Source: a virus. Taken from it: 27,678 bases of DNA. Where the stretch lies: positions 1-27,678 of IMG/VR virus record IMGVR_UViG_3300044301_001657; one strand, 5' to 3'. A model generated the notes under the pieces. That model did no database searches. It worked only from the letters and a program-made list of their open reading frames with translations, and was not told where the DNA came from. The position numbers and the translations under genes are program-made. Positions 229 to 17,731 of this stretch are shown here, one piece after another. The first letter of the stretch is position 1, and every line of letters begins with the position of its first letter.

Positions 229-1775
229 GTTGTGGCGAAGGATGCAACGGCTGCGAAAGCGGCAAGTTTGGGTGTAGCTGCTGCTGCGCGTCGGTCACCA
301 ACATCAAGGGTGGCATTCACCCTGACTCGATGCGGACGGTCACGATGGACCTTGTGCTTGAGGAGGCTGATGCGTCGCAAACGATCACGCACATCAGCAA
401 GCTGCTCCTCAACGAGCCAGCGCACATCATCGGTGTAGACGCTTCGCTGGTTAGCACCAAGCGAGACACGACAGTAGACAACTCGGAGAAGCAGCTTCAG
501 CAGCAGGGCACTACAACTAGCCTTAGCGACGCAGCGCTCATCAAAGCTACGACGCCGGTAAACGTCGCGCTCTACACGCTCCCCGGCTGGTCAAGCAACA
601 CCCTAACGCAGGGCGGCTTTGGCGCTATCGAGCAAGCGCAGGGTCGCCAATACATCACGACTGCGTCCCTGACCGCCCAAGCGCCGACCTGGATCGCGCA
701 CGAAGACCTCTTCGGCTACTTCGCAGACGGCGGCCTCTACGTCGAGTTTAACGCGCCCAGCGATCAATACGGCGTCCGCATCGTTGTCCGCTACGTTCCG
801 CGCCTCCAGTTCTCGCCAGCTTACCACGACCCGATCGACGTCATGCAGCACTACTGGAAGTGCAGCCGTGGCGATGCCGAGTTCCTAGAAGGCTTTTACG
901 CAGGCACATCGCAACCGATCCCGTCAATCGAGTCGTCTGCGGACACACCTTCGTTCGACACAGTCACAAGGCAGTCTGACGACCTCGACATCTACGCTGA
1001 CCCGACGGTCACTAACCTGCTGCTGGACACCTACACGGGCGCTCAAGCGGCCTACAGCGTGCGCAAGCTGGATAAGGATTACTCGGGTAGCTGCATCCGC
1101 ATCCGCAACGCAACTAGCGGTGCCGAACTAGACGTTGGCTTCGACACTAACGGCGACCTTGACCGCGTCGCCATTGCCAACCACTGCGGCACTGCAAACG
1201 GGTTTGTCGTCACTTGGTATGACCAGAGCGGCAATGGCCGCAACATGACGCAAGGGACTGCCGACTCGCAGCCGCAGATCTACAACGGCACGACTACCTT
1301 CACCCGAAACAAGAAGCCGGTCATCGACTTCAACGGCAAGGTGCTCGCGCAGACCGGCCTCCGCATGGCAACCGCAAACGGCTACAGCTTCGTAGTCGGC
1401 GGTTCGTCCGACGGCTCGGGCGGCTTCGTGCTCTTGCCCAGCGACAACCTACTCAACGCGGCAGGCATCGCGGCGAACGGCAACTCCGGTGCGGCGCACC
1501 TAAACCAGACCGTGACGTCTTACCACGTTAACGGTGCAGCGCTCGACACCGCCACGCAAGATGCCTTGTTCGACGCGGTGGGCCAGCAAGCCTTGGTGCG
1601 AATCAGCAACCACGACAACACGGAAGGCTCGCACCGCTACTACAACATGGGCTACACGGCGGTCGCATCCTACGACAACCTGCTGCTCCAAGAGTTGGTT
1701 ATCTGGCACGCCGACCAGAGCAGCAACGCTACCGGCATCGAGACCGACATTAACTCTTACTTCAGCATCTACTAA
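225..1775 (+). CDS. Virion protein with Cys-rich N-terminus and arabinofuranosidase-B-like jelly-roll C-terminus
   Basis: 516 residues. Three parts can be seen. Residues 1-21 hold seven cysteines (3, 7, 10, 17, 19, 20, 21), unusual for a phage structural protein. Residues about 30-240 are a beta-rich region without a family I recognise. From about 265 to the end the sequence matches the pattern of the alpha-L-arabinofuranosidase B catalytic-like jelly roll (AbfB family), with AYSVRKL at 275-281, GNGFVVTWYDQSGNGR-type wording at about 325-339 and a closing E(T/L)-I-x-x-YF element. Such domains recur in phage appendage proteins, where they are thought to bind or trim glycans. The start overlaps the preceding stop (ATGA) and the end overlaps the next start (TAATG). 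It is probably a tail or capsid decoration protein; enzymatic activity is not shown. Confidence 0.8.
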   Translation: MSCGEGCNGCESGKFGCSCCCASVTNIKGGIHPDSMRTVTMDLVLEEADASQTITHISKLLLNEPAHIIGVDASLVSTKRDTTVDNSEKQLQQQGTTTSLSDAALIKATTPVNVALYTLPGWSSNTLTQGGFGAIEQAQGRQYITTASLTAQAPTWIAHEDLFGYFADGGLYVEFNAPSDQYGVRIVVRYVPRLQFSPAYHDPIDVMQHYWKCSRGDAEFLEGFYAGTSQPIPSIESSADTPSFDTVTRQSDDLDIYADPTVTNLLLDTYTGAQAAYSVRKLDKDYSGSCIRIRNATSGAELDVGFDTNGDLDRVAIANHCGTANGFVVTWYDQSGNGRNMTQGTADSQPQIYNGTTTFTRNKKPVIDFNGKVLAQTGLRMATANGYSFVVGGSSDGSGGFVLLPSDNLLNAAGIAANGNSGAAHLNQTVTSYHVNGAALDTATQDALFDAVGQQALVRISNHDNTEGSHRYYNMGYTAVASYDNLLLQELVIWHADQSSNATGIETDINSYFSIY

Positions 1776-4700
1776 TGGCTGACTTTGCAAAGCACCGGTT
1801 CGACGAACTGCCGATGGATCGGCGCATTGCAGGTGAAGCCCGTGGCGTGTCGCGCAACTCGCAGTTCGGCGCAATCTACGAACGTCGCGAAGTAGACCCC
1901 GTTGCCCCGCACCTTAAGCGGCGGACTGGCACAAAGCGCGTTTCAAACGCGGTGCCCAACTTGCTGGGCCTTACCTACAACGGCACTAAGGGGCGCGTTG
2001 TTGTAGACCGCGACTTCACAACTGAATCGGCGGCAGCCACGGGGTGGACGATCTTCGGCACGATCCACATCCCGACGGACACCAACACTGACACGAAGTT
2101 CTTCCGCATCCTGAACTTCGCTAACTTGTCGTTCTACGTCAAGCGATACAACAGCAGCGGCAACACGGTAATTCTCGAAGCCAGAAACGCTGGCGGCAGC
2201 GTCATTACTAGCTCCGACGCTTACGCGATTAGCGCGGGTAACGACCTGCACTTTGCCTTGTGCTACGACAAGAGCGGTAGCGCAAAGATCCGCGTCAACG
2301 CTTGGCGAGTCAGTGATTCGCCTAGTGTCCCTTCCGATAACGAGGCGGCCTACACTGTCACTGGAGCCGCTGAGCTACAGTTGCTCGGCGAGAACACGCA
2401 CACGTTTGCTGGCGCAGACATGGGCGACTGCGTGCTTAACAACATCCGCCTGTTCGACAACGACAACTTTACAACGGGTAACTACAACACCGCCGCGCTC
2501 GGAACGTCTGCAAGCGAAGACGGCCTTATCTGGCAAAGCGCGTTGTCCGATGGCGGCGACCTCCTCACGCACAGCACTACCGACGCCTACCTTATCCCGA
2601 CCAACCCTGTGCTGTCGGGAAGCACTATCCGGTTCGGTGGTCTTGGCGTCATCGAGGTGCCGTTCTACCTCGACTTCGACGAATACTTCTGGACCTCGAC
2701 CAACGCGGCTGCGCGCCTTGAGTGGTGTTTCCAACTCAAGCTCACGCTGCCGAAGATCCTTAAAGCCTGCACGGTCTTCGAGCTTCAAGACCTTATCCGG
2801 CTTGAGATCGTGTCCGACAGCGGGTTTAAGTTTCGCGCCACCTACAACGACACAGGCACAGTAGTCACAAGCACCGTGGCGCTTAGCGCGGGCACGGCCT
2901 ACGACGTCTTCGTCGCACGCGACACCAGCAACACCCGCCTTAAGGTAGGCGCTACCGAAACAACCGGAACCGTCTCCAACCCCATTGTCTACAACTACGA
3001 CAAGACGATCGGGTTTGTCATTGGCGACAAGGTAGACTTCCAAAACACTGCGCCATTCGGGGGCCAGCTAGAGAAGTTTGCGCTACACAACAACTCGGCG
3101 CGTGAGTTCCAAGATCGCGAAGACGCTGTCATCTACTACGACACGGCGTCTATCCAAGGTGACGAAGTGCTGGACCAGGGCAACCGCGCCCTCAACGGTT
3201 TCCTTGGTGTTCGCTCAGACACTCAACCTCCTTTCTATAGTGAGGGCGGTTTCCCTGGCGGCGGCTACGTCGCGGCTTGCGGTGGATACCTAGTCTCCAA
3301 CGCCAAGCCGGACATTGGTTACAGCGGACAACTACGCAAACCGCTCACTAAAGACGTTGTTATCCAACGGCGTGGCCGCCGCGCTTTCCTAACTTCAAAC
3401 GGCGTCAACTACATCGTTGACGACCGGACGAAGAACATCCGGCCACTGGGCATCCCGCGTCCAAGCACCAAGGTCTCGTGCATCCCGCAAGGCGTTGGTG
3501 CGATCGACGGCTTTGTCCGCTACGCCTACCGCTACGTGTCGATTGACGGCACGGTCGGCCCCATCTTCGACCTGGACCCGTGCGACGCAACGGGCGGTGT
3601 AAACGTCTTCCTGGGCGCCGAGGCGTTCGGCACCCCAGTCGATCCAGCCTTTGGCCTGTCGTTCGGTGAAGCTGAGAAGGAAAAGACTGTCGCGACTGAC
3701 ACGGTCGAATGCTTCATTGCTCGCGACAAGGACTCAACCGATGCTACGTCGCAACTGCTGCACAAGCAGATGTCGGACGGCCTTACGCTTGAAACCGCGT
3801 TCCGCCTTCCAACCCTAGCTAACACGCTAGACGACTCCATTATCGCCCAAGGTGTTTACGCACCCGCAGGTGAGACGACTTGGTGCGCTGACAACGAGCC
3901 GGTCACGTTCCCCTGGATTGGCAAGGTAGCCCAAGAGTGCTGTTTCCAGCTTTCGTTCCGCTACAAGTCAGGCGCGCCCGGAATAACTAGCTCGCTCGGA
4001 GCAACGGTCGTCCCGGCGGGCGTTCAAACGCTGTTCTGCATCGGCAACCGTGACCAGAAGTATCGGACAGGTGGTGGCATTGGCGGCGGTAGCGTCCACT
4101 GGCGAGCGCAAGAGCTTTACGTCTCGATTCAACCACCCGCCAGCGGCTCTAACTCAGCTTCAATTGTAGTTACACGCGACGACGGTAGCCGCGATAACGC
4201 GCTTCAGCACTACGCCGCCGACGTCACGCTTGTTAACGGTAACGACTACACGTTGTTCGTCCAACGCACCGGCTCTGACCGAGGCCACACAACTGGCGGA
4301 ACGCTAGAGATTGCGATTTACAATCACAACACTAGTTCGTTAGAGAACTGGCCCGCTGCGGCAGCAGGCTCAAAGCGTATCGAAGTTGAGAACTTCTGGA
4401 CGCCCACGTATTCAGGTCAGGGTGGCTATCACGAAGTTATGTGGGGCATGGGCCGCCGCGAAGGCAACGAGATCACAGGTAAGACGCGCTGCCGCCAATC
4501 AAGTGGATCGGCCACGTTCGAGTTTGACCAGATCCCGGCGCTCTACAACGGCACATCAGGTTCAACCCCCGGAACGGTTCTATACCACGGTCGCATGTGG
4601 CGGCGGGCGTTCCCCCTTGCACTGCTAGTTCAAAAGGGGTTGACGCGATACGGCGCACGGAGCGGGCCGCTAACTAACGGTCTAGAGGTAGACGTTGCGT

Positions 4701-7096
4701 TCGCGTCGGACGCTTCTGCTGAAACGTTGGAAGGCGGTTTCGACTTCCCCAACGACACGCGCGTTAAGTTCTACAACAAGAAGAACAACGCTATCAGCGG
4801 GCAAGTCCTCTTTACGGGTAGCGAGACGCGCACGGTGTTCCTGGCCTACGGTGCCGAGAACACGGTTATCCCAGGGACTAACCCGGCCACGAACTCGCAC
4901 GCGGTAACGTCTACTGACGACATCCCGCTTTGGGCAGCCTACACCAGCCGCGATTCTGGAACGCTAGTTGTCGGCACTGGCGAGCAAGAAGCGCTGACCA
5001 TCAGTAAGCGCAAGTGGCACCCCGGCGCTGAGCAGCGCACGTTCGACGACTTCGCCAACGTCATCGACCTAAAGCAGTGGACTTGGCTAACGCTGTTCTT
5101 CTCGCAGGAACCCGGCATCGAAGCCGGAGCAGGCTCTAACTTCCAGGTATGGCTTCAGCGAATCTTCCTCGATGGCAACACCGGAGACTGGGCCGAGTTC
5201 TACAACGCTGGAACTCAGGTCTACAAGAGCCGAAACAACACGGCGACTGGCGACGGGCAATACAGCTTGTTTACCGTTGGCGGTGTTCCCGGTATCGACA
5301 CTCAGTTCGAGGTCGAGATCGCAGAGGTCCGTCTATGGGATGGTGAGCGCTACACCAGCCCAGCAGGCGGCAACGGTGCAAACGTCTTTGGTGCCTACCT
5401 GTCCGCGCGCGTCCCGCCCAACTACTGGGACGACATGCACCACTACCTGCGCTTCGCCCCCATCGACGTTAACGACATGGCTAACCAGTCCACTATGGAT
5501 CAGGTTGGCACATTCGCAGACTCAAACGGCAAGGTGCAGGCGACTACGGACGCCGTCACCATCTACCAAAACGCGGCAGTCACAGAGGCGGTAGACCCCA
5601 ACGCTAGCGGCGGGTCGAACTACTTCATCCCGTTCCCCAAGCCGCCTGTGCCTGCGATTCGCGGCATTGAAATCTTCCGCACGCAAGTCGTCCCCGTTCA
5701 AGAAACGTTCATTAGCGGTGCGACTAACCCCCAAGCTCAGACGGATGCGTTTAAAGCTTGTCGCGCTGCGCCGCTCTACTACCTGACTGAGATCCCGGAC
5801 GGCACGCAGGCTTACTACGACAGCGCCATCGACACCCTGCTCGGCGCACAACTCAACTTGACCGAGGGCTTGATCCCCGGCAACCCTGGCGGCGTCTTCG
5901 AGTGGAACAACTACTTGGGCATTTGGGTCACCGACGCACCGCGCATCCACTTTGCAGCCTCGCCCGACTCATGGGAGAGTTTCCCGAGCGACATGGTCTT
6001 CGACCTCCCGCTCAAGGAAACCGGCATCATCACTGCCGCCGCCGAGCTTGCGTCGCGTGACGCGCGCAACTCACGCGTTCTCCTCCTTGGCCAAAGCTGG
6101 GGCGCATTCCTTGACGGGTCACCCACTAACCCGCAGACCAACACGCTAGGTGGCGGCGTTGGCGCAGCTAACTCGCGCTGCTTGGTTATCGAGAAGGGCG
6201 TAGCTTATGCCTACAACGGGACACTCTGGGCCATTACTGGCGACGGACAAGTGGAAGACATTGGCATGCCCGTGCTCGATCTGCTACCTCCGACGGACAA
6301 GGCGCGCCTATCAGTCTCCTCATCACTTAGCTCCCTCTACGTCATCAACGAAGAGACCGGCCTCACCCTGCGCTGGCACTTTGCTCGACGCGAGTGGTTC
6401 GTCGAAGACCGAAATGTTCTCAGCACCACGGACATCGACGGAGTAGACAACTGGGTTCACGTTAGCGGCTACCCGAGCGCCGGAGACAGCACGATCTACG
6501 CTGACGACGTTGAGAGCAATACGCCGACGTCGGGCATCGCCGTGACCAACATTAGCGGCACAACGTTTACCGTATCGTCTACTACTGGAATCAAGGTCGG
6601 CCAGCGGCACACGGTTGTTGCTGACCAAGACCCGCGTATCCGGCACACACTTGAGGTTGCGTCGCTTACAGGCACCACCGTCACTTACACGACAGACCCG
6701 TCAGCCGCAGCGACAAGCACCAACAACTTGAGCGGCTCTTCGGTAGCCCTGACCTACAAGATTTACGTTGGCGTCGGCTACTGGGGCACGATGCTAGACA
6801 CTGGCCAGTTCACCAACACCGGAGTCGTTAAGCATGTGGACGTTGGAATTACAGACGGAGACAAATGGCACGCAACGTCTGCGGGTGCAGATTTCGCCGG
6901 AGACCCCTCCAGCCGAAGCGTCTTCGATGCTCCTGAATCTAGCCCAACTGCTGTTGTCGGATCTGGAGGAGGAGGAACCTCCGCAAGATGGGGACTTACC
7001 GAGCGACAGAAAGTTCAACGACTTCTGGTCTGGACGTATGAACCACAAGCCGTGGGACTTTCCGAACTCGAACTGAACTACAGCCCGAATGACTAG
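1775..7096 (+). CDS. Very long tail protein, probable tail nozzle with inserted lectin-like domains
   Basis: 1773 residues, beta-rich throughout. The backbone reads like tail nozzle (tail tubular protein B-type) proteins: residues about 520-600 contain a paired RYAYRYVSIDGTVGP strand element, about 1290-1365 contain IRGIEIFRT and a YYLTEIPDGTQAYYDS element, and about 1375-1560 contain a propeller-like stretch (WNNYLGIWVTDAPRIHFA, then SWGAFLDG, YNGTLWAITGDG). Residues about 75-235, 300-440, 640-940 and 1060-1190 look like concanavalin or LamG-type jelly rolls (strand patterns such as WTIFGTIHIP and a final V-x-x-x-x-I-R-L-(F/W)-D). Residues about 1580-1670 look like an extra small beta domain. 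A T7 gp12-type nozzle is roughly 800 residues, so more than half of this protein is extra. It starts in a TAATG overlap with the upstream gene and has no clear Shine-Dalgarno. Role by inference: tail tube end and receptor contact. Confidence 0.72.
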   Translation: MADFAKHRFDELPMDRRIAGEARGVSRNSQFGAIYERREVDPVAPHLKRRTGTKRVSNAVPNLLGLTYNGTKGRVVVDRDFTTESAAATGWTIFGTIHIPTDTNTDTKFFRILNFANLSFYVKRYNSSGNTVILEARNAGGSVITSSDAYAISAGNDLHFALCYDKSGSAKIRVNAWRVSDSPSVPSDNEAAYTVTGAAELQLLGENTHTFAGADMGDCVLNNIRLFDNDNFTTGNYNTAALGTSASEDGLIWQSALSDGGDLLTHSTTDAYLIPTNPVLSGSTIRFGGLGVIEVPFYLDFDEYFWTSTNAAARLEWCFQLKLTLPKILKACTVFELQDLIRLEIVSDSGFKFRATYNDTGTVVTSTVALSAGTAYDVFVARDTSNTRLKVGATETTGTVSNPIVYNYDKTIGFVIGDKVDFQNTAPFGGQLEKFALHNNSAREFQDREDAVIYYDTASIQGDEVLDQGNRALNGFLGVRSDTQPPFYSEGGFPGGGYVAACGGYLVSNAKPDIGYSGQLRKPLTKDVVIQRRGRRAFLTSNGVNYIVDDRTKNIRPLGIPRPSTKVSCIPQGVGAIDGFVRYAYRYVSIDGTVGPIFDLDPCDATGGVNVFLGAEAFGTPVDPAFGLSFGEAEKEKTVATDTVECFIARDKDSTDATSQLLHKQMSDGLTLETAFRLPTLANTLDDSIIAQGVYAPAGETTWCADNEPVTFPWIGKVAQECCFQLSFRYKSGAPGITSSLGATVVPAGVQTLFCIGNRDQKYRTGGGIGGGSVHWRAQELYVSIQPPASGSNSASIVVTRDDGSRDNALQHYAADVTLVNGNDYTLFVQRTGSDRGHTTGGTLEIAIYNHNTSSLENWPAAAAGSKRIEVENFWTPTYSGQGGYHEVMWGMGRREGNEITGKTRCRQSSGSATFEFDQIPALYNGTSGSTPGTVLYHGRMWRRAFPLALLVQKGLTRYGARSGPLTNGLEVDVAFASDASAETLEGGFDFPNDTRVKFYNKKNNAISGQVLFTGSETRTVFLAYGAENTVIPGTNPATNSHAVTSTDDIPLWAAYTSRDSGTLVVGTGEQEALTISKRKWHPGAEQRTFDDFANVIDLKQWTWLTLFFSQEPGIEAGAGSNFQVWLQRIFLDGNTGDWAEFYNAGTQVYKSRNNTATGDGQYSLFTVGGVPGIDTQFEVEIAEVRLWDGERYTSPAGGNGANVFGAYLSARVPPNYWDDMHHYLRFAPIDVNDMANQSTMDQVGTFADSNGKVQATTDAVTIYQNAAVTEAVDPNASGGSNYFIPFPKPPVPAIRGIEIFRTQVVPVQETFISGATNPQAQTDAFKACRAAPLYYLTEIPDGTQAYYDSAIDTLLGAQLNLTEGLIPGNPGGVFEWNNYLGIWVTDAPRIHFAASPDSWESFPSDMVFDLPLKETGIITAAAELASRDARNSRVLLLGQSWGAFLDGSPTNPQTNTLGGGVGAANSRCLVIEKGVAYAYNGTLWAITGDGQVEDIGMPVLDLLPPTDKARLSVSSSLSSLYVINEETGLTLRWHFARREWFVEDRNVLSTTDIDGVDNWVHVSGYPSAGDSTIYADDVESNTPTSGIAVTNISGTTFTVSSTTGIKVGQRHTVVADQDPRIRHTLEVASLTGTTVTYTTDPSAAATSTNNLSGSSVALTYKIYVGVGYWGTMLDTGQFTNTGVVKHVDVGITDGDKWHATSAGADFAGDPSSRSVFDAPESSPTAVVGSGGGGTSARWGLTERQKVQRLLVWTYEPQAVGLSELELNYSPND

Positions 7097-7517
7097 CGAA
7101 CTCACAGCCAAGACGATGAGCTACCTCGCAGCCGCGTTCGAGGCCGAGGCCGCTGTGCTCGAAGCAGGTGGCTTGGCCGGACGCGACTCCGAAAGCGTGT
7201 GCCCGGTTAAACACTCGTTCGGCGAGGGCTGCTACGTTCGCGAATGGAACTGCCCCGCCGGAGTGCTGACTGTTTCCAAGGTCCACAAGATCGCGCACCC
7301 CTTCTTTGTCTTGAAAGGCCGCGTGTCGGTGATGACCGAAGACGGCATGGAAGAGATCGTTGCACCACACTACGGCATCACCCTACCGGGAACGAAGCGC
7401 GTGCTCTACACGCACGAGGACACGACTTGGGTAACGGTGCATGTGACTAACAAGACCGACATCGACGACATCGAACGCGAGATCATCGCGGGCCAATTGG
7501 AGGACTTAGAAAAATGA
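7089..7517 (+). CDS. Cupin-fold phage protein
   Basis: 142 residues. Residues about 58-120 form a cupin-like beta barrel: a first motif with H66 and H70 leading into PFFVLKGRVSVMTEDG, and a second with PGTKRVLYTH (H109) and H118. These histidines are plausible metal ligands, although the classic HxH spacing is changed to HxxxH. Residues 1-30 are helical and the last 20 are acidic (DIDDIEREI). It starts eight bases inside the end of the tail gene and overlaps the next start by four bases (ATGA), so it is expressed with the virion genes. Small cupin proteins are seen next to tail genes in other phages; their role is unclear (structural barrel or small-molecule or sugar metabolism). The fold call is fairly safe, the function is unknown. 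Confidence 0.75.
   Translation: MTSELTAKTMSYLAAAFEAEAAVLEAGGLAGRDSESVCPVKHSFGEGCYVREWNCPAGVLTVSKVHKIAHPFFVLKGRVSVMTEDGMEEIVAPHYGITLPGTKRVLYTHEDTTWVTVHVTNKTDIDDIEREIIAGQLEDLEK
7499..7503 (+). promoter_or_regulatory. Shine-Dalgarno for the small ejection protein
   Basis: GGAGG lies ten bases before the ATG at 7514. It is one of the few clear ribosome binding sites on the + strand of this window, where most starts rely on overlap with the upstream stop. Confidence 0.6.
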
Positions 7518-8179
7518 CTTGGGTTGCTGCTGTAGGTGCTGGTGTGGGTCTTGCGGGCAATCTTCTCGGTAACCGGGCCAAGAAGAAGGCGGCTAGCGAA
7601 CAGGCTAGGCTCGCTACTGATCAAGCGCAGAAGATGCGTGATCGAGCCACTGAATCGGCAAACGTCACTAAGGCGGAAATCGAAAACCTGCGCACGCTGC
7701 GCTCGATGGACATGCCCGCGTTTAGACAAGCCAGCGAAAGCGCGATGATTCAGGCGCAGAAGGGTGCGGAGCGCATGGCGCGTCAGCGCACGATGGGCCG
7801 CCTTGCACCTGACGTTCGCCAAGCTGTCTTTGGTGGACAGTTCCAGCAATACGTCGGACGCGAGATGCAACGCCTTCAGCAATACGCTGGACTAACGCAG
7901 CAGATTATGCAGGCAACGGAACAGCAACAGCAGATGGCTAACCGAGTCGAGCAAGCTGCGGGTGGCATAGAATACCAAGGCATGAGCCAAGCTGTTCAAA
8001 TGCGGCAAGCAGCAGGTGAGGACATGGGGTCGATCTTGGGTGCCGTCGGTTCAGCCGTGTCACAGTATGCAAAAACGCAGGCTGCTGAGGCAGAGGCAAA
8101 CTCGCCAGACCCGGAAACAGGTGGTGTTCGCGGCGCAACTGCGGATGACTACATGCCGGAACTCCCACCGGGCTTTTAA
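7514..8179 (+). CDS. Small internal virion (ejection) protein, T7 gp14-like by position and composition
   Basis: 221 residues. The N-terminus (residues 2-20) is a Gly/Ala-rich hydrophobic stretch (AAVGAGVGLAGNLLGN) followed by a basic KKK cluster, as in small ejection proteins that enter membranes. Residues about 25-150 are strongly helical and rich in Gln, Ala and Met, with long predicted amphipathic helices. The C-terminus is Pro/Asp/Gly-rich and looks disordered. It is followed directly by a 1290-aa and an 1883-aa helical protein, the same small-large-very large order as T7 genes 14, 15 and 16. Its size is close to T7 gp14 (about 196 aa). No enzyme motif. Similarity is by pattern and gene order, not by a sequence match I can prove. 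Confidence 0.65.
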   Translation: MTWVAAVGAGVGLAGNLLGNRAKKKAASEQARLATDQAQKMRDRATESANVTKAEIENLRTLRSMDMPAFRQASESAMIQAQKGAERMARQRTMGRLAPDVRQAVFGGQFQQYVGREMQRLQQYAGLTQQIMQATEQQQQMANRVEQAAGGIEYQGMSQAVQMRQAAGEDMGSILGAVGSAVSQYAKTQAAEAEANSPDPETGGVRGATADDYMPELPPGF

Positions 8180-8203
8180 TCTACCGCGTTACTGATATAG
8201 CTA

Positions 8204-11200
8204 ATGACTAGCATCGACTTTTCAAAGGCGTTGGCAACGTTGGGCGGCACGCTCAGCGCACGCGCTCTCGGTGGACCTCAAGCCGCGCAACAATACCTTG
8301 CGCAACTGAACAAGCAGGAGGAGTCCCGACTTGCGCGTGAATACGATGAGTCGCAGAAATCGCGCGATCGGGAGTTCACGCTTACCCGCGATCGGCTTGC
8401 GGCTGAAGAAGCTCAGGAAGCCCGCAAAAGCGCGCAGGCTTTCCAGACTGGTGAGCGCGTTGCTAGCCAAGGTTTCCAGGCCGGTCAGGCGGCTGACCAG
8501 CAAACGTTCACGCTTAAACGAGACAGGCTGGTTAGCGCACGGCAAGCCGCGCGAGATGCAAGGCTAGGGGAGCAGCAGCGTAACGCAATTGCAGCGCAGG
8601 GAGAACAGCAGCGTCTTAACACCGAGCTAGAGAACGCTCACGCAACTGTTCGCGCTCTGCAAGAGCACGAGCGAAGGCTTGAGCTAGGTGCGCAGTCTCA
8701 TGAAAACGACGTAGCGTTAGCTAACGTGCGTGCAGAGTTAGCCGCTGCGGAAGGCAGGGCCGCCCGCGCGGATCAAGCCATACAGGGGCAAGCGAACCGT
8801 GATGCGGCAGCCGCTAACCTAGCTGCTCAGATCGCTGCGAAGAGGGAGCAGCAAGCCCTTGATCACCAATACGCCATTGGCCTAGCCGTTCTTCAAAACG
8901 ACTTTGCCCAAGAAGGACAAGCCCGCCAGCAAGCGCACAGCATTGATCTAAGCGCGTTTAACTCCGCTAACCGGATGCGGGAAGACGACAACAGGACAAA
9001 GAATGCAATAGCGCTCAACGAGCTAGACGACAGTAAGACTGCTACGCTAAAGGCTACCACGACTTACGGAAGCATTGTAGCCAGGGAAGACAGCGGCTTC
9101 ATGCTTGCTGCCATTAGGCGAATGCAGGCGGTGCTGCCGCGCAACCCCGACGGCAGCCCTCAGGAAGTTGACTTCGATAAGCGCGAGCAAACGATCGCGC
9201 AGTTGACGATCGTGATGACGGAGGGCGGCTTCAGCAGCGAAGCTACTGCCGCCTCTTACGACGCGGGTCAGCGCGACATCGAAGCAATCAATGCTTTGAC
9301 GGGCGGAGCGGTTGACGCCTCTAAGATGGACATTGCGGGTCGAGCGAAGGTTCGGCAACAGCACGCTAGTGGGGGGCAGGAAGCTCAAGCCATTAACGCG
9401 AAGGCGGCGGAGATTGCGGCTGACCTGGAGGATTTGAGCGGTCAGGCGAACCTATCACCTGAAGCCATGAAGGCGCGAGAAGAGGCATCTGCAAAGGCGC
9501 AGGTCGCTCTAGCGCAGCGCTTTGCGAACTGGCGAACTAAGTATGGCGTGTTTACGGGTGAAGGCGGCAGTCTTGCTGCCACATCCGAAGCGCTTGAATC
9601 GGCTTTAAACAACGCCGGTCGCCTGACCAACGTTGTCCAAGACGGCCAGATCAACGCTTTGGCGGGCACCTACAACCCTGCCAGCAACTCCGGCGCGATC
9701 TTCGGCCCACGTTACTTAGAAGATGAGCAAGCGTTTAACCGCTTGAACCGAAGCAACGCAGTCAGTGATCGCGCAGCGGCGTGGAACAAGAGTGCGGTAG
9801 CGGCTGCGGGATTGTCCGACAGTGACCTTAAGCACGCAGGTTTAGACCCGCAACAGCGTGCGGTCATCGACCGCCTTAAGGGATACTCCAAAGACGGACA
9901 GCTTGATCTGCAATCCGTTAACGACAGAATCCGTCGCCACCTACTCGCGGGCGAGCAAGCCGAAGCAGACGCGCTTCAAAGCATGGTGCAGGGTGCTGCT
10001 CGTTTAGACCTTGGCGGTGCGATGGTCCGCATCAATCAGGGTCGCGAACAACAGCAGGCTGTTCAAGGTGTCGAGACGCTAGCTGCGGCTACGATGGAGA
10101 ATAGTTTGGTGCGCTTGTTCCCGCAAGGCGAGGGCAGGAGAACAGCTATCCTAGCTGCCGTTCAACAGCACGGCTTTGAGACGCCCGGTTCCGACACTAA
10201 GCGCGGGCCGCAAAATGAGCAGGAGAACCAAATCTTCCTAAGCCGCTACGTTAATAGCGACGAAGGCATGAACGCGCTTGGACAGTCGGTCTTGATGACG
10301 ATGCAATCGATTCAAGATCCCGATGTAGATGCTGACGCCATGCTGGACGGTAAGATTAGCCATGCCGTTGATGGGTTGGGCGTTTCAAACAACGCGGCAA
10401 TAAGGCGAAAGCTGAAGCGCAAGGTTAAAGAGATGCTTGGCCAAGACCCGAACGGTGTCAGCATCTCGTCTGAGGCCGAAGCCGTCGGGGAAGCGATTGA
10501 CGTTGACTTCGCACCAACGGATCGGCTGATGAAGGCGGCTTCGGCACTTAGCTCGCTATCACCGGATAACGCGGCAAAGTGGAACGCGTTTTACGGTGCT
10601 TCCGTCCTTGGCCCGACGCGAGAGGAGCGAACCGTTTTAGCCACGGGTTACCGAGGCAGGGATCGGGCGTTGCTCTCGGCTCTTGAAGACATCAAGCAGC
10701 GGCGCACAGAAGTGCCCGGAGAGACGCCGGATCAACGTGCGGCGCGTGAGCAGGCGTCGGCGCGTGCAGAAGCCAGCGGTCGCGTCGTGACGCGTGACCT
10801 AATTGATCTGTGGGCTTCGATGGACCGTGGGTTTGAAAGTGTCAACAACATGCACGGTTCGCTTCGTAGGAATGCAGCGGCCAAACACGCGTCACAAAGC
10901 ATTAGGCATTTAGGTGATGTAGGAGGAGCAAAGCCTACAAGTGTAGATGGCGACTATATGTTTGGCGAGGACTCGCTTTATCAGGCCAGCATGAGCCAAA
11001 GCGATGCGGAGAAACTCTTGTCTGCGGGCGATAGAAGTCAGCTTGAACGCCTCGACTACTTTCGCGCAGCAGACATATCGCAGATCCCAAACCTGTCTCT
11101 TTCGCAACGGGACATCCTAGCTGGTGTTCAGCAACAGCTACGTCAGCTTGACCTCCCGGCGGCAATGGCCGCCATTAACAATGGGTTTAACATGGAAGAC

Positions 11201-12076
11201 TACGGTCTGACTGTTAACGCCGACCCTGAAGCAGCGCAGAGGCAAATCCTTGCTCAACGTGTGCCCTCAAACCCGAGGGACATGTTGGATGTTAACGCGC
11301 AACGTTTGCAGCTTAGAAGAGCCAAGCAGCAGGCTGTGGCTTTAGATACCTCCGGCAGCGTTTACGCAGACACAGATCCTCGTGACGGTTTAGCTTACGG
11401 CATGGTTGACGAGACCGTGCAGGAGGCGCTGCTTGCGGACATCGACAAGGGTTTGCTGGCGCTAGATGCGTTTGAAGCAGCTAAAAACTCGCCGCTGCTC
11501 AGCAACTTGGCGCCGACGATGGCGTCTATTATTCCGTCGGAAGCTTTTGGGTCGCGGCAAAGCCTTGCTGAGGCGGTAAAGACGCAGCTACCTGCGATTA
11601 CGGGTCAGTCGGCGGACGCAATTGGGCTTACCATTGAGCAGGGGCAGCAGCTTGCTGAAAATATTGGCAACGCCCCAACTAACGCAGCGGGTCTCGACAT
11701 GGTGTTTGAGACTTTCTTCAACAAGGCGGCGAAGCAGTCTGCCGAAAGATTGGGGATGTCTTTTGCAGGGGCCACGGACAAGGATAGCAGGGACATGGTT
11801 GCTCGCGTTATGAGCGCCACAGTAACGGACATGCGAGACAAGGTCCGCGCCCTGAATCGGACCATGCTGGAGCGGATGACGTTAGGCGAGCTTAACTACG
11901 AAGACCTACCCGGCCCGATTAAAGCTCGTGTCGCACAATCGAACTTCGACGAAGCCATCGAACGAGTCCGCAGTGTAGACTCACCTCTAGCTAGGGCAGA
12001 CGAAATGCTGCTGTTGTCTTTCCAGGTGTTCCTTGCTGACTCCGCGACAACTACGGGCACCCTAAGCGAGCGTTAA
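8204..12076 (+). CDS. Large internal virion (ejection) protein, T7 gp15-like by position
   Basis: 1290 residues, almost entirely helical. Residues about 35-290 are a Gln/Ala/Arg/Glu-rich coiled-coil-like region with an internal repeat of about 44 residues (FTLTRDRL at 58-65 and FTLKRDRL at 102-109). The rest is polar, low in cysteine, and ends in SER. No lysozyme, transglycosylase or protease motif is visible. Position between a gp14-like and a giant gp16-like gene suggests a protein packed inside the capsid and injected ahead of the DNA to build a channel across the envelope. It is much longer than T7 gp15 (747 aa). The 24 bases before the ATG hold no good Shine-Dalgarno. Other explanation: a tail tape-measure-like protein, less likely given the absence of long-tail genes here. 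Confidence 0.65.
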   Translation: MTSIDFSKALATLGGTLSARALGGPQAAQQYLAQLNKQEESRLAREYDESQKSRDREFTLTRDRLAAEEAQEARKSAQAFQTGERVASQGFQAGQAADQQTFTLKRDRLVSARQAARDARLGEQQRNAIAAQGEQQRLNTELENAHATVRALQEHERRLELGAQSHENDVALANVRAELAAAEGRAARADQAIQGQANRDAAAANLAAQIAAKREQQALDHQYAIGLAVLQNDFAQEGQARQQAHSIDLSAFNSANRMREDDNRTKNAIALNELDDSKTATLKATTTYGSIVAREDSGFMLAAIRRMQAVLPRNPDGSPQEVDFDKREQTIAQLTIVMTEGGFSSEATAASYDAGQRDIEAINALTGGAVDASKMDIAGRAKVRQQHASGGQEAQAINAKAAEIAADLEDLSGQANLSPEAMKAREEASAKAQVALAQRFANWRTKYGVFTGEGGSLAATSEALESALNNAGRLTNVVQDGQINALAGTYNPASNSGAIFGPRYLEDEQAFNRLNRSNAVSDRAAAWNKSAVAAAGLSDSDLKHAGLDPQQRAVIDRLKGYSKDGQLDLQSVNDRIRRHLLAGEQAEADALQSMVQGAARLDLGGAMVRINQGREQQQAVQGVETLAAATMENSLVRLFPQGEGRRTAILAAVQQHGFETPGSDTKRGPQNEQENQIFLSRYVNSDEGMNALGQSVLMTMQSIQDPDVDADAMLDGKISHAVDGLGVSNNAAIRRKLKRKVKEMLGQDPNGVSISSEAEAVGEAIDVDFAPTDRLMKAASALSSLSPDNAAKWNAFYGASVLGPTREERTVLATGYRGRDRALLSALEDIKQRRTEVPGETPDQRAAREQASARAEASGRVVTRDLIDLWASMDRGFESVNNMHGSLRRNAAAKHASQSIRHLGDVGGAKPTSVDGDYMFGEDSLYQASMSQSDAEKLLSAGDRSQLERLDYFRAADISQIPNLSLSQRDILAGVQQQLRQLDLPAAMAAINNGFNMEDYGLTVNADPEAAQRQILAQRVPSNPRDMLDVNAQRLQLRRAKQQAVALDTSGSVYADTDPRDGLAYGMVDETVQEALLADIDKGLLALDAFEAAKNSPLLSNLAPTMASIIPSEAFGSRQSLAEAVKTQLPAITGQSADAIGLTIEQGQQLAENIGNAPTNAAGLDMVFETFFNKAAKQSAERLGMSFAGATDKDSRDMVARVMSATVTDMRDKVRALNRTMLERMTLGELNYEDLPGPIKARVAQSNFDEAIERVRSVDSPLARADEMLLLSFQVFLADSATTTGTLSER
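8369..8530 (+). repeat. Internal protein repeat in the 1290-aa ejection protein
   Basis: Codons at 8369-8398 encode REFTLTRDRL and codons at 8501-8530 encode QTFTLKRDRL, 44 residues apart and each followed by an Ala/Glu/Gln/Arg-rich helix. Between them AFQTGER and GFQAGQA form a smaller echo. The DNA copies differ at several third positions, so this is an old duplication kept at protein level. Confidence 0.6.
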
Positions 12077-12079
12077 ACA

Positions 12080-15000
12080 ATGTCAGACCTGCAACCAGGG
12101 TTTATGGATCGTCTCTTTAATTCGACGATCTCTTACCCGCAGCAACTCTTGTGGCGTCTTTGGCGTGTTATTGAAGACGACAAGATCGACTTGTTTGACG
12201 AAAAGGGTATTGGCGACCTAGCCGCCGTGCCCCTTCTAGGCTTTCTGGATGACCACAAGCACGACGTAATGCCGGACTACATGGCGGAGCAGATGGGCTT
12301 CGCTAAGGAGGGTCAGTCGGGTCTTGGGTCTCAGCTTTCAGCCGCCATCCTAAGCGACCCCTTGACCTACATGACCGGCGGGCTTAGCGCCATCGGCAAA
12401 GTAGCAAAGGGTGCGAACACTGCAAGTAGAGTAAAGGCGGTTGGCAGCGTAACTAAAGCAGCGGCAGCCGCAAAGAAGCTGAAGCTAAACGAATACATGC
12501 AGCAGCTATCGCCGCAGGATTTTTTGCGGCACCTTGACGAAGCAGCCGATCAGGTAGCCCAGGGAGTGGGCGGTTTAACAAAGCGCCAAATCGCTAAGCA
12601 ACAGAAGACGCTGGCTAAAGCGCGCAAGCAAGTCGGCGATAACGTGATCGAAGCGGAGGCGCGCGCGGGTAGGAAAGCCGCACAGAACGGAACTAAGCCG
12701 AAGCCGCTGACGATGGCGGACTACATTAAGCAGACTAGTGATCGCCAAATCTCCCTTGGCCTCCCTGTCTTGCACCGTTGGGGCGCGAAGTGGGATGTGC
12801 CTAAGGACGAGGGCAGTTGGTGGCAACTGTTTAAGCACGGCACCAACAAGGGCGGCACATCGCTAGCTAAAGCGATGATGACCAACCGCTTGACCGCTGT
12901 CCCCGGAGTTAACCACTTTCTTAAACAGGCGAACACCATTGTGGGCGCCATGTCAACGGGTTCGCGTATTGGCGCAGAAGCGTTGAACGCGATACGCAAG
13001 GGTAGGGATCTCACGCCTGGTGCTTTAGACGCCTACGCTCGTTGGCTTAGTCCGGGTGGTGCGTCGCGCGTGGTGGGGCAATTGCGCAAGGCGGCTTCCA
13101 CTGCCGAAGGCGGCATCGAAGAGGTCATCACGAAGGTCGAGAAAGCCTACGAAGAGGCCATCGCTGCGGGCGCCAAGTCGCACGAAGAAGCCTACAAGAT
13201 TGCGTTCCGCAAACAGAAGATTGGAATGCGTGGCGAAACTGGCCGCGATCTTTGGAACCGTTTGTCGGGTCACACTAAAGACACGACTGCGCAGTTCCCA
13301 GATTTTGGTGCCGGTGCGGGTGCGGGTAAGGCCCAGATTGGTCCGCTTCTTAAGAAAGCCTTAGCTGAAAACACTGCGGCAAGTGAACTGCACCAAGCTG
13401 GCAAGGGGTCGGTCGATGTAGTCGGGACTGAAGTAGGTAAGTTAAAGAGTGTTTTTGACGCCAACGTTAAAGAGTTACCTGAGTTACTTCAGCCGATAGC
13501 CAAGGGGCTTTACAAAACAGGAGAGCTTTACCGAGTCGGGCTGAACAAGGCGTTTAAGACAGGCACGGCTTCTGCTGTTGGGGAAGCGCAGTATTCCAAG
13601 TTCTTGTCCAACGTCGCGCGCGACAACGCGCAGATGGAGAAGCTGACCCAAGACCTTTACAACAAGATTAAGAAGGTTACGGGGCAGGACGGTTTCCCCT
13701 TGTCGCACCGCGATCTCATCAAGGTCGTGTCTAAACTGACGGAGCTAGATGCGCTTCCGGGTGAGCTTGCAGCTTCGTTTCACGCAGCGTCGATGGGTGG
13801 AGACAGCGCGCGCGCAGTCTACAAGTCGATGGAGAACTACCTCAAGCGACAGCGCTCTACGCTAGTCACGTTTGAGAAGCTGCTTAAACGCACAGCGGAC
13901 AAGGGCGGCATTGCTGCGTCGGAGCTTAAGACCAAGCTGACCGCAGCCCTTGACCAAGATGTGTTCCCGTTCTTGGAGAAGATGGGCGACACCACTGAGG
14001 GGGCAGTCCAGACTTACTTCGCGAACTTCGCTAGTCGCATCCACAACGCATCACGCGAAATTGAAGTGTTCTCGCCGCTGCAACAGCAGCAGATGAAGAG
14101 CGTTGTTAACGGCCACGTCCTCACCGGGACGGCGTTGCCCTTGACCAAGGGGCAGCTTGTAGCGCAGAAGGCGGGAAAGAACGTCGAGCAGCGTGTGTTG
14201 CTTGGGCAGCTTGAAGGCAAGTTTGCAGGCACGCTAGACAACAACCAGATTGCCGACGCTCTTAGCGAGTTAGACAAGGCGGGTCAGCGGGCAATGACGC
14301 AATCCGAAGTGGTTGCAGCCGCCAAGAAAATGCCCGCCATTCAAGAGTTGCTACAGGTGCAACGTAAGGCGGGTAACAAGCTCAGCGTAGAAGAGTTGCT
14401 AGGCGCCTTGAGTAAGACAGGCAAGGTTAAAGACCGTGTCGTCACTCGCGCCGTGACCCAGAAAGTGCCGCTTTGGGATGCCAGCCGCACTTCTTGGACA
14501 TTGGATCAAGCGTCTCAAACAGCGCGTCAGTATGGTTACTCCCTGTTCCAAGATGTAGGTGCGGGGGGCAAGCTTCGAGTTGTGTCCCGGCACGCAGACG
14601 CGCCTAGTCTCGAAGGATTCTCTACGGTTAGTGGTGCTATGGGAGCGCTGCGGCGCACCCTGACCAAGAACCCGGAGATAGCCAAGAAGTATGGGCCAGG
14701 GCTGCCTGATTCGTTGATTAGCCGGACAACCAACAAGCGAATCACGATTGCGGCACAGGATTTAAAGCGCGCTCAAAAGTTTTTAAGCAGCGAAGACCTG
14801 AACATCTTGCGCGGCAAGGCAACTGTCTTCGATGAGGCGGTGTTGCCGGGTGGGGCAGCTAAGCACCACCAAAGACTCAAAACACTACAGCGAAGGCGTA
14901 ACTACAAACCCGGACACAAGCTGCATGCGGACGTCATTAAGCCGCAGATACAGAAAGTCTACGATCAGGTCGCGCCTCCGCGCGGTGCGGACGAGTTCTC

Positions 15001-17731
15001 GTTGTTCCTTCGTCGCGCTGGCGTCAACATTGACGAAGCAAACTTCAGCCAGTTCGCCCACCACTACGCGCGGGGTCGCCTGCTGCTTAGCGAGGTCAAC
15101 GGGGCCATTTCGCGTCACGGCTCTTTGGCGGCACCGGGCAAGCCCTTTGTCCTAGACCCGACGATTGCGGCTGACATCGAAGCTCACGTTGCGGCGTCCG
15201 GTTCTGCTGTGGCTGACCTTGTAAAGTCGCACCTACCTAAGGAAGTAAACGACATCTTCGACACGGCGCAGAAGATTAGCAACGCGTCGTTTGAGGCGGC
15301 TAAGGCGTCTGGTGTTTGGATGCCGGGTTCGCCGGTTGCGTATCTGCCGCGCTTCTTTAACAAGAGCGCGCGAGCACGTATTGAAAAAGTCATCGGCAAA
15401 CTTGAAGTGGAAGACTCCACTATCTTGGCGCGCCTTGGGGTTAAGACGGCGGCCTACAACAAGCGGCACTTAGATGAAATGTCGGTAGAGGATCTCAACG
15501 ACCTCTACTTCGAACTTCGGGAAGTATCCATGAAGGAGGGCGCTAGCCCAAACATGAAGAAGTTCCACGAGGAGCTTGACGAGGTGATGGAGGAAGCCGG
15601 TGTAGGTATCTCCGGTTTAAAGAAGACGCTGCCCTTCCTGAAAAACGAACGGTTGGAGACTGACCCGTTCTTGTCGTTGCTCCAACGGTTTGGCATTGCG
15701 CAGCAGGATCGCAACTTGTCGGGTTACTTTGACGAGATGCTTAAGGCGAGCACCGGGAAAAACGGTGATTCGCTAATGCTTGCCGGAAAGGTTGTCGGTG
15801 TTGTCGATGACACGGGAGCCACTACTCGGCTTTCCACTACTACGTCTAAGGTGCGGCAAGCAAAGCGCACTAAGAAGGGTGAGGTTAAGTCGCTAGCTGA
15901 AGAGCTAGACAACCTCGAAGCTACGCCGCAGTCGCTGATCGTCCGTCTTGACGACGGCACTGAGCACGTTGTTCAAAACAACATGCTTAACGAAACGGGC
16001 ATGTCGGTTTTGCCTTTGGGTCGGATGGACAAGGTTAGCCCCGGCACCGAAATTAGTAGCGGCACCTTGTTCGCACGCGCCAGCCTAAACTCTGGGCTAG
16101 ACAACCAGATGTTTAGACAGCCGCTTACGTTGCAAGAAGCCGGTGACCTGCTTGACAGCCACATCGTCTTTGGGCACGGGCACAACATCACTTCGCTAGT
16201 TAAGTCGGCGGCCCAGGTTCACGATGTTACAGGGCGTGGGATGCGCGCGTTTGACTCGATCAACTACACGATCAAGTCGTTCCAAACCATTTTCCGCATC
16301 CCGTTCCACGTTGCTAACTTGGCGTCAGGTGTGTTCCAGGCATCGCTTGCGGGAGCGACACCGAAAAACCTAATGGCGTCTTACATCGACACCATCCGTT
16401 TCATGTTTGGGAACCAAGAGTTCTCTAAGCACGCGACGATGGTGTCTGACATGATGAACGTAGGCGACGACGTAGTGTCAACGGGCATTAAGTCGCTTTG
16501 GAATGGGGAGCGAACAGCGCTCCAGCAATCTGCCCAGCTTCACGGCGACGGGTCGCTTGCAGCTTTGTTGGCAAAGCAAGACCCGGAAGCAGCCGCAAAG
16601 CTAGATCAGTTTGAAGGGCTAGTCATTAAGCGTGCGGACGGGACCGAGATCGACATGGCCGAGTTCGTTCAGACTGCTGGCGAACTACAGCTTTACGGCA
16701 CGTATGCCAGCAGCCTTGCGCGCGGCTCAACGTCTACGGCAGACACCTTGTTGCGCATTAAGATGGACGCGCTAGAGCCGACTTACGGGGGGTCTTGGAG
16801 AGGTGCCGGTAAGCGGCTAATGCAGCGCATGGCGAACCGCGCGGAGGCATCGGAAGTGCTGAACCGAACGGCCACTGCCCTGGCCCTGGTTCGTGAGGGG
16901 CACTCGACGCGACGCGCTATCGAGATTGCTAAGGAAGCGCACGTTCCATACGAAAAGCTCACGCCGTTTGAACGCAACTACGTCAAACGCGTCTCGGCTT
17001 ACTACACGTTCCCGCGACACTACGTCCCCTGGGCGTGGACGCGCTTCATGGAAGACCCGGTAAAACTTGCCCGCATCGGCCATTACATTCGCGATCAAAA
17101 CGTAGTGACTACGGCTGAAGGCAAGGCGACGCTAGCTATCGGGAATTACCGCGTAGACCTTGGCCGTCTAAACGCCAACTTTGAAGCGGCAGGTGCGGTA
17201 GCGGCTTTTGCAGACCGATTGCTGTTGCCGCTCGCTGACGTAACACCGCTCGGAAACGCTTTCGACGCGCGCAAGCTGCGCGGTATCACAAGCGATGCGG
17301 GTCTGCTGTCAATTGGCGGTGCAGCTAAGCCTATCGTCCAAACACAATCTTTGTGGGGCGACTCTTCGCGCGACATGCCAGTCGGAAACATGATAGAGAC
17401 GGCGGCAGACATGGTCTGGCCGGTTAAGTATCTAAGTATGCTTATGGGTGTGCGTCCGACTAAGGAAGAGCAGAGCCCCTTTGTCCAATACACACCGATG
17501 GAAAGCATCCTGACCGACTCGACGTTTGGTGTTGGTATGCGCAAGGTGCGCGACAAGCACGAAACTCGACGGGGTCAGATGATGTTCCGCCGAATGATTA
17601 AGCAGTTGCAGCTACGTTCGGCGGCAACAGAAGACCCGGACAAGAAGATGCGTTTGCAGCAGCACGCACAACAACTGGCCGAAGGCTTCCAGCGTCTTAT
17701 TAGCGAGGACGCGCAGAAGATGTTTAAATAA
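12080..17731 (+). CDS. Giant internal virion (ejection) protein, T7 gp16-like by position
   Basis: 1883 residues, mostly helical, with several hydrophobic or amphipathic stretches (for example AAVPLLGFL at about 48-56, IFRIPFHVANLASGVFQA at about 1405-1422). Residues about 1627-1651 contain FERNYVKRVSAYYTFPRHY, a form of the KR-x-x-(P/A)-(F/Y)-Y-T-(F/W) signature I associate with very long injected or polyvalent phage proteins. Residues about 1090-1110 (GSPVAYLPRFF) resemble another recurring element of these proteins. A small beta insert lies at about 1230-1320. T7 gp16 has an N-terminal lytic transglycosylase domain, but nothing like its catalytic Glu motif is visible here. The ATG follows the previous stop by three bases and the end is a TAATG overlap with the holin-like gene. 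Role by inference: the largest ejected protein, forming the DNA conduit in the cell envelope. Confidence 0.62.
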   Translation: MSDLQPGFMDRLFNSTISYPQQLLWRLWRVIEDDKIDLFDEKGIGDLAAVPLLGFLDDHKHDVMPDYMAEQMGFAKEGQSGLGSQLSAAILSDPLTYMTGGLSAIGKVAKGANTASRVKAVGSVTKAAAAAKKLKLNEYMQQLSPQDFLRHLDEAADQVAQGVGGLTKRQIAKQQKTLAKARKQVGDNVIEAEARAGRKAAQNGTKPKPLTMADYIKQTSDRQISLGLPVLHRWGAKWDVPKDEGSWWQLFKHGTNKGGTSLAKAMMTNRLTAVPGVNHFLKQANTIVGAMSTGSRIGAEALNAIRKGRDLTPGALDAYARWLSPGGASRVVGQLRKAASTAEGGIEEVITKVEKAYEEAIAAGAKSHEEAYKIAFRKQKIGMRGETGRDLWNRLSGHTKDTTAQFPDFGAGAGAGKAQIGPLLKKALAENTAASELHQAGKGSVDVVGTEVGKLKSVFDANVKELPELLQPIAKGLYKTGELYRVGLNKAFKTGTASAVGEAQYSKFLSNVARDNAQMEKLTQDLYNKIKKVTGQDGFPLSHRDLIKVVSKLTELDALPGELAASFHAASMGGDSARAVYKSMENYLKRQRSTLVTFEKLLKRTADKGGIAASELKTKLTAALDQDVFPFLEKMGDTTEGAVQTYFANFASRIHNASREIEVFSPLQQQQMKSVVNGHVLTGTALPLTKGQLVAQKAGKNVEQRVLLGQLEGKFAGTLDNNQIADALSELDKAGQRAMTQSEVVAAAKKMPAIQELLQVQRKAGNKLSVEELLGALSKTGKVKDRVVTRAVTQKVPLWDASRTSWTLDQASQTARQYGYSLFQDVGAGGKLRVVSRHADAPSLEGFSTVSGAMGALRRTLTKNPEIAKKYGPGLPDSLISRTTNKRITIAAQDLKRAQKFLSSEDLNILRGKATVFDEAVLPGGAAKHHQRLKTLQRRRNYKPGHKLHADVIKPQIQKVYDQVAPPRGADEFSLFLRRAGVNIDEANFSQFAHHYARGRLLLSEVNGAISRHGSLAAPGKPFVLDPTIAADIEAHVAASGSAVADLVKSHLPKEVNDIFDTAQKISNASFEAAKASGVWMPGSPVAYLPRFFNKSARARIEKVIGKLEVEDSTILARLGVKTAAYNKRHLDEMSVEDLNDLYFELREVSMKEGASPNMKKFHEELDEVMEEAGVGISGLKKTLPFLKNERLETDPFLSLLQRFGIAQQDRNLSGYFDEMLKASTGKNGDSLMLAGKVVGVVDDTGATTRLSTTTSKVRQAKRTKKGEVKSLAEELDNLEATPQSLIVRLDDGTEHVVQNNMLNETGMSVLPLGRMDKVSPGTEISSGTLFARASLNSGLDNQMFRQPLTLQEAGDLLDSHIVFGHGHNITSLVKSAAQVHDVTGRGMRAFDSINYTIKSFQTIFRIPFHVANLASGVFQASLAGATPKNLMASYIDTIRFMFGNQEFSKHATMVSDMMNVGDDVVSTGIKSLWNGERTALQQSAQLHGDGSLAALLAKQDPEAAAKLDQFEGLVIKRADGTEIDMAEFVQTAGELQLYGTYASSLARGSTSTADTLLRIKMDALEPTYGGSWRGAGKRLMQRMANRAEASEVLNRTATALALVREGHSTRRAIEIAKEAHVPYEKLTPFERNYVKRVSAYYTFPRHYVPWAWTRFMEDPVKLARIGHYIRDQNVVTTAEGKATLAIGNYRVDLGRLNANFEAAGAVAAFADRLLLPLADVTPLGNAFDARKLRGITSDAGLLSIGGAAKPIVQTQSLWGDSSRDMPVGNMIETAADMVWPVKYLSMLMGVRPTKEEQSPFVQYTPMESILTDSTFGVGMRKVRDKHETRRGQMMFRRMIKQLQLRSAATEDPDKKMRLQQHAQQLAEGFQRLISEDAQKMFK

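Follow-up and report, generated by a model that had tools for sequence, protein, structure and literature searches.

A podophage tail nozzle enlarged by lectin-like inserts, putative adhesion modules at the tail

We analyzed a linear IMG/VR fragment of 27.7 kb (hereafter the window), in which all the genes described below are on the + strand. The window opens with the 3′ end of an adaptor gene (1-225), cut by the window edge; its full homologue in the relative L002 matches PF24175 (SU10_adaptor; E = 1.6e-5, just under the curated cut-off), and the portal of the relatives matches PF23899 (SU10_portal; E = 1.2e-8, above the cut-off). The sole gene between the adaptor and the nozzle is P0002 (225-1775), having a conserved N-terminal domain and a LamG/arabinofuranosidase-like C-terminal domain. 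It is followed by the nozzle gene with inserts, P0001 (1775-7096; 1773 aa), an intact ORF with full-length homologues; by P0003 (7089-7517; 142 aa); and by three genes for presumed ejection proteins of 221, 1290, and 1883 aa (7514-17731), which are gp14/15/16-like by order and size. The gene order in the relatives is terminase, portal, scaffold, capsid, adaptor, P0002, nozzle, and ejection proteins, with the order of the presumed ejection genes kept; family support for the latter is one weak gp14 match (PF24072; E = 0.63). P0001 therefore has a nozzle-type placement, since the SU10_adaptor-like gene lies two genes upstream and the gp14-16-sized genes lie downstream. The 1883-aa presumed ejection protein (12,080-17,731), gp16-like by order and size alone, gave no confident family match in searches of Pfam and PHROGs.

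The nozzle protein can be divided into eight parts. Residues 1-66 (1775-1972) are conserved and presumably form the N-terminal platform strands, by analogy with their position in T7 gp12; they are followed by insert 1 (residues ~67-440; 1973-3094), of variable length and with predicted lectin-like domain(s), and by the presumed first propeller blades (residues 441-575; 3095-3499), which have a constant length of 135 residues and align at their end to the compact nozzles of other phages (see below). Next comes the first half of an apparently split FN3-like domain (residues 576-612; 3500-3610), containing RYAYRYVSIDGTVGP (residues 582-596; 3518-3562) and aligned by hhalign to compact-nozzle positions 83-161; then insert 2 (residues ~613-1280; 3611-5614), absent from the compact nozzles and predicted by AlphaFold and Foldseek to hold at least two concanavalin-A-like jelly rolls; then the second half of the FN3-like domain (residues 1281-1360; 5615-5854), aligned to compact-nozzle positions 164-217 and containing IRGIEIFRT (residues 1295-1303; 5657-5683) and YYLTEIPDG (residues 1335-1343; 5777-5803). 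Residues 1361-1570 (5855-6484), the most conserved long block and one with no length variation, are the presumed remainder of the propeller, and residues 1571-1773 (6485-7093) are the presumed dock and C-terminal platform, placed by position only and modeled by AlphaFold with moderate confidence. Residues 1-66 and 1560-1773 showed no similarity to the compact-nozzle profile.

Relatives of the nozzle gene were found on about 20 viral contigs in our contig scans, and some 14 of these contigs encode a full-length homologue of 1763-2027 aa; the full-length relatives share 47-73% identity, and two look near-identical. Both insert regions are present in all 13 aligned sequences, including a C-terminally cut copy from a metagenome-assembled genome (MAG), and five scans of viral contigs, made to find close relatives without the inserts, yielded solely inserted-type ones; relatives lacking the insertion, which the sequence-only reading had suggested looking for, are found among the compact nozzles, but every full-length close relative recovered carries both inserts. 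The core segments 441-575, 576-612, 1281-1360, and 1361-1570 are constant in length among the relatives; their mean pair identities are 0.64, 0.82, 0.65, and 0.75, respectively. Insert 1 ranges from 374 to 606 aa (mean pair identity 0.42) and insert 2 from 636 to 678 aa (0.50), and two relatives have gained sequence: L023 has an additional 222-aa module and L030 an additional 127 aa. Part of the L023 module (residues ~250-472, inside insert 1) matches virion structural proteins of large Vibrio phages (best E = 7e-12), which suggests module exchange.

Two of the related contigs deserve a separate mention. L008 (IMGVR_UViG_3300044304_001554) begins within the nozzle gene, and the protein encoded there matches window residues 859-1773 at 100% identity, so it is probably the same virus as the window. 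The MAG copy is a single nozzle fragment of a related phage in a Gemmatimonadota MAG: a 10.5-kb piece in the chromosome (CP070815.1, ~1,841,267-1,851,755; L025, L054, and L055) runs from the portal to a nozzle truncated near residue 1500 and terminates within phage genes, while the bordering genes are without similarity to these phages. This piece is either a degraded prophage or an assembly chimera, and is therefore weak evidence about the host; a search of 298 Gemmatimonadota genomes returned this fragment and nothing else.

The intact P0001 matched nothing among GenBank phages, and no nozzle in Pfam, PHROGs, or PDB; among the intact proteins of the family, the best match to phrog_511 spans 35 residues (E = 0.067). 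We joined residues 556-612 to 1281-1372 (149 aa), leaving out insert 2, and the joined relatives matched phrog_511 continuously, at positions 435-561 of 862 (L017, E = 1.9e-6; L023, 6e-6; L020, 0.002; L022, 0.32); the joined copy from the window itself had no match to phrog_511. We also built a profile from 12 compact nozzles (A10) and compared it by hhalign with the profile of the intact inserted family (A3), which gave two collinear hits (columns 547-604 to positions 83-139, and 1281-1354 to 164-217), whereas the joined profile gave a single uninterrupted hit (E = 4.2e-8, probability 94.9%), which runs on past the junction to compact-nozzle position 270. The true join scored 63-67; 18 false joins were never continuous and recovered one half only (41-43 for the first half with a wrong segment, n = 9; 32-33 for the second half with a wrong segment, n = 9), and reversed or shuffled templates scored 16-25. 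These controls indicate that each half finds its own neighboring place and that the true join alone is continuous, so the pairing of residues 582-596 with 1295-1343 is, as judged from the profiles, not due to chance. The sequence-only reading had taken 1775-7096 for a nozzle gene, and RYAYRYVSIDGTVGP and IRGIEIFRT/YYLTEIPDG for the halves of one domain parted by about 690 residues; the first proposal is borne out by the joined-profile match to compact nozzles, the phrog_511 matches, and the gene order, the second by the collinear hits that become continuous upon joining while the controls fail, and the alignment puts the insertion at ~668 residues (613-1280).

The compact nozzles, at 520-584 aa and without inserts versus 1773 aa here, serve as the reference. 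A tblastn search with the joined core led to a 584-aa protein of Microcystis phage Mwe-JY25 (E ~1, a weak lead if taken alone), which is a member of phrog_511 (E = 6e-175) and matches the solved chain 8jov_A, one of six chains (E = 3.3e-172); the profile of the compact family matches 8jov_A with an E-value of 3.4e-243. The Mwe-JY25 protein reads PLAVPRP...TRTYVYTFVTEFGEEGEPS...NNVLLSDIQAPPAGRGITRQRFYRT...FFYLIADRS, the same elements lying some tens of residues apart, and its gene is downstream of portal and head genes, as in the lineage of the window. The FN3-like element and its flanks are collinear with P0001 in BcepIL02 gp63, Mwe-JY25, and 8jov_A, all compact phrog_511 nozzles. Residues ~535 onward of the window protein align to compact-nozzle positions 83 onward; as about 535 residues precede the aligned part versus about 82 in a compact nozzle, there are about 450 extra residues near the N-terminus. 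By profile homology, then, P0001 is a podophage tail nozzle homologous to the ~580-aa nozzles of Bcep22-like phages and 8jov. Of the twelve or six copies proposed from the sequence, six are supported by analogy and twelve are not, because P0001 is homologous to the six-chain 8jov and the nozzles of T7 and SU10 are hexameric. The protein ORFN, at the nozzle position in Vibrio phage VpV262 (L094:32977-35712), has a weak match to phrog_511 (E = 0.002), and its C-terminal end appears carbohydrate-binding-like by inspection.

In two AlphaFold jobs (residues 574-1773 and 441-1640; 18 sequences), the FN3/propeller core stayed unfolded (pLDDT <50), so the integrity of the domain rests on sequence profiles: the rejoined core is one domain by homology, while the fold check proposed for it gave no confident core. 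Similarly, the expected likeness of residues 1290-1570 to nozzle propellers holds as far as compact-nozzle position 270: the joined alignment covers just the first stretch of the seven-bladed propeller past the FN3 element, and the rest is assigned by position. The A3-family profiles, even when joined, reached none of the PDB chains directly; hhalign found no similarity to T7 gp12, SU10 gp13, or SU10 gp17, and nine reference podophage records, searched by profile, gave no hit. The Kosakonia Kc259 hit was dropped, since it spans two genes, one of which is encoded on the other strand.

Insert 2 was modeled well (pLDDT mostly 75-94 for residues ~643-1173), and Foldseek matched the model to concanavalin-A-like folds (pentraxin, CBM40, PL7, galectin, and LNS; best PDB E = 2.8e-7) and to LamG-type viral proteins (best E = 3.4e-9), all at the level of the fold, with about 10% identity. 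The jelly rolls foreseen between the split halves are thus recovered as concanavalin-A-like domains; the one foreseen near residues 300-440, in insert 1, has a counterpart in a match of residues 344-440 to Pfam Laminin_G_3, which is below the cut-off (E = 2.4e-4) and occurs in one of 13 members. The predicted folds suggest that the insert domains are probably lectin-like and sugar-binding, although concanavalin-A-like folds are also known in structural and enzymatic proteins.

We propose that the nozzle has been enlarged by lectin-like inserts acting as adhesion modules at the tail, a reading to which we assign a probability of about 0.6; the structural part of it (a split nozzle with inserts) is strongly indicated by the profile comparisons, and we hold the functional part (adhesion) with moderate confidence. 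The nozzle is about threefold larger than usual owing to inserted blocks of lectin-like domains: the FN3-like domain, which in sequence follows the presumed first blades and precedes the remainder of the propeller, has been opened shortly before the IRGIEIFRT strand and carries ~668 residues of predicted concanavalin-A-like jelly rolls, and a second block, of ~370-600 residues, follows the presumed N-terminal platform strands and precedes the first blades. A hexamer would have six copies of each block, with the insert 2 lectins arrayed about the distal tail end and those of insert 1 near the adaptor. We infer the tip location of insert 2 by analogy, because T7 and SU10 insert their tip or nozzle domains at the matching place of the propeller. 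The inserts may bind surface glycans or exopolysaccharide and so keep the end of the tail at the envelope; once bound, they would pull on the domain leading into the gate-forming propeller, and binding could help trigger its opening. A bolder version, in which this podophage lineage has no true fibers and the nozzle is the receptor-binding machine, its tip-domain lectins coupling glycan binding to gate opening, is conceivable but doubtful.

The bolder version depends on the fibers, and the sequence-only reading had seen no fiber gene after the nozzle. P0003 appears cupin-like by inspection, but it matches PHROGs labeled short tail fiber or tail fiber adhesin (phrog_12032, E = 2.8e-32; phrog_24280, E = 5.1e-30) and has homologues in 54 GenBank phages, many of them marine. 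P0002 matches phrog_10356 (E = 1.3e-11), its homologue in L002 matches PF09206 (E = 2.2e-5, just under the cut-off), and the homologues of its C-terminal part are Gordonia and cyanophage virion proteins. Because the C-terminal half of P0002 is LamG-like and P0003 matches short-tail-fiber PHROGs, both are candidate separate adhesins, and the absence of a separate fiber is only partly right. They may even be the primary adhesins, one or both, with the nozzle lectins secondary (for example, holding the phage on extracellular polysaccharide), which we consider possible while inclining against it: P0002 sits between adaptor and nozzle, the place of the long-fiber genes of SU10 and the fiber genes of BcepIL02, but its LamG-like domain is present in the window and L002, whereas in most relatives the protein is 250-270 aa and lacks that domain; P0003 was not detected downstream of the nozzle in more distant relatives, where a gp14-like gene comes next; and the nozzle inserts, by contrast, are constant. 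The relative G001 is near-complete (terminal overlap of 1.3 kb at 98.9%), and its genes of more than 250 aa are those for head, tail, presumed ejection, and replication; no long-fiber gene was recognized in it, and fiber-family matches were absent among the proteins scanned. Nozzle lectins may possibly serve instead of separate fibers, and the inserts may have replaced fibers in part.

The jelly rolls might instead be structural, widening or lengthening the nozzle or bracing it against the adaptor and fibers without binding the host. The Ig-like domains inserted in the SU10 nozzle straighten, contributing to a 28-nm extension of the tail (PMC9509320), and the inserts here occur in every relative with moderate variation (0.42-0.50), unlike many hypervariable receptor-binding tips; but lectins and CBMs are among the best matches to the concanavalin-A-like fold, and, as adhesion modules do, the inserts diverge more than the core and have acquired further modules in L023 and L030, so we regard a purely structural role as unlikely. 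An enzymatic, polysaccharide-degrading role is far less credible: PL7 alginate lyases and ulvan lyase are among the Foldseek matches, but the window protein has no QIH/QVH or YxKxGxY motif, and matches at ~10% identity reflect the common concanavalin-A fold. A reading in which the elements come from separate domains of a protein that is not a nozzle, as the missing direct nozzle match of the intact window protein in Pfam, PHROGs, and PDB might suggest, was already disfavored and is highly improbable given the collinear split hits, the joined-profile match with its controls, the phrog_511 match that arises on joining in the relatives, and the fitting gene order.

In well-studied podophages, receptor binding is attributed to fibers or spikes and DNA gating to the nozzle. 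Built-in lectin-like domains, as in the adhesion reading that we prefer, would unite receptor binding and DNA gating in one protein, and the inserted nozzle would be a simple system for asking how binding opens the gate; compact and inserted nozzles offer a comparison for how such domains are acquired. As Pfam, PHROGs, and PDB all miss the intact protein, nozzle genes can conceal determinants of host range from annotation pipelines. Our search of openly available full-text papers found no description of lectin domains inserted in a nozzle.

Several known nozzles are comparable to P0001. P22 gp10 shares the nozzle position and is hexameric in P22, but it has 472 aa and belongs to a family (PF11134) matched by neither P0001 nor the compact nozzles scanned. 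T7 gp12 occupies, judged by gene order, the same position in the tail and also has a tip domain inserted in its propeller, which is opened at blade 3, while its 45 N-terminal residues complete the platform (PMC6702177); T7, however, has no lectin inserts, its receptor is bound by gp17 fibers, and sequence similarity to P0001 is undetectable. BcepIL02 has a compact nozzle plus separate tail-fiber genes (four annotated as such, all before the nozzle). The nozzle of SU10, a Kuravirus, is likewise a propeller with extra domains inserted, in a phage with related portal and adaptor families: in gp17, blades 2 and 3 are separated by four Ig-like nozzle domains, which straighten on ejection (PMC9509320). 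Its inserts are tandem Ig-like (Big_2) domains, whereas those of P0001 are predicted to be lectin-like and lie inside one domain, and here too sequence similarity is undetectable. A host-binding nozzle has a precedent in the Vibrio phage OWB, whose tail tubular proteins TTPA and TTPB bind the host receptor Vp0980 (PMC7241545).
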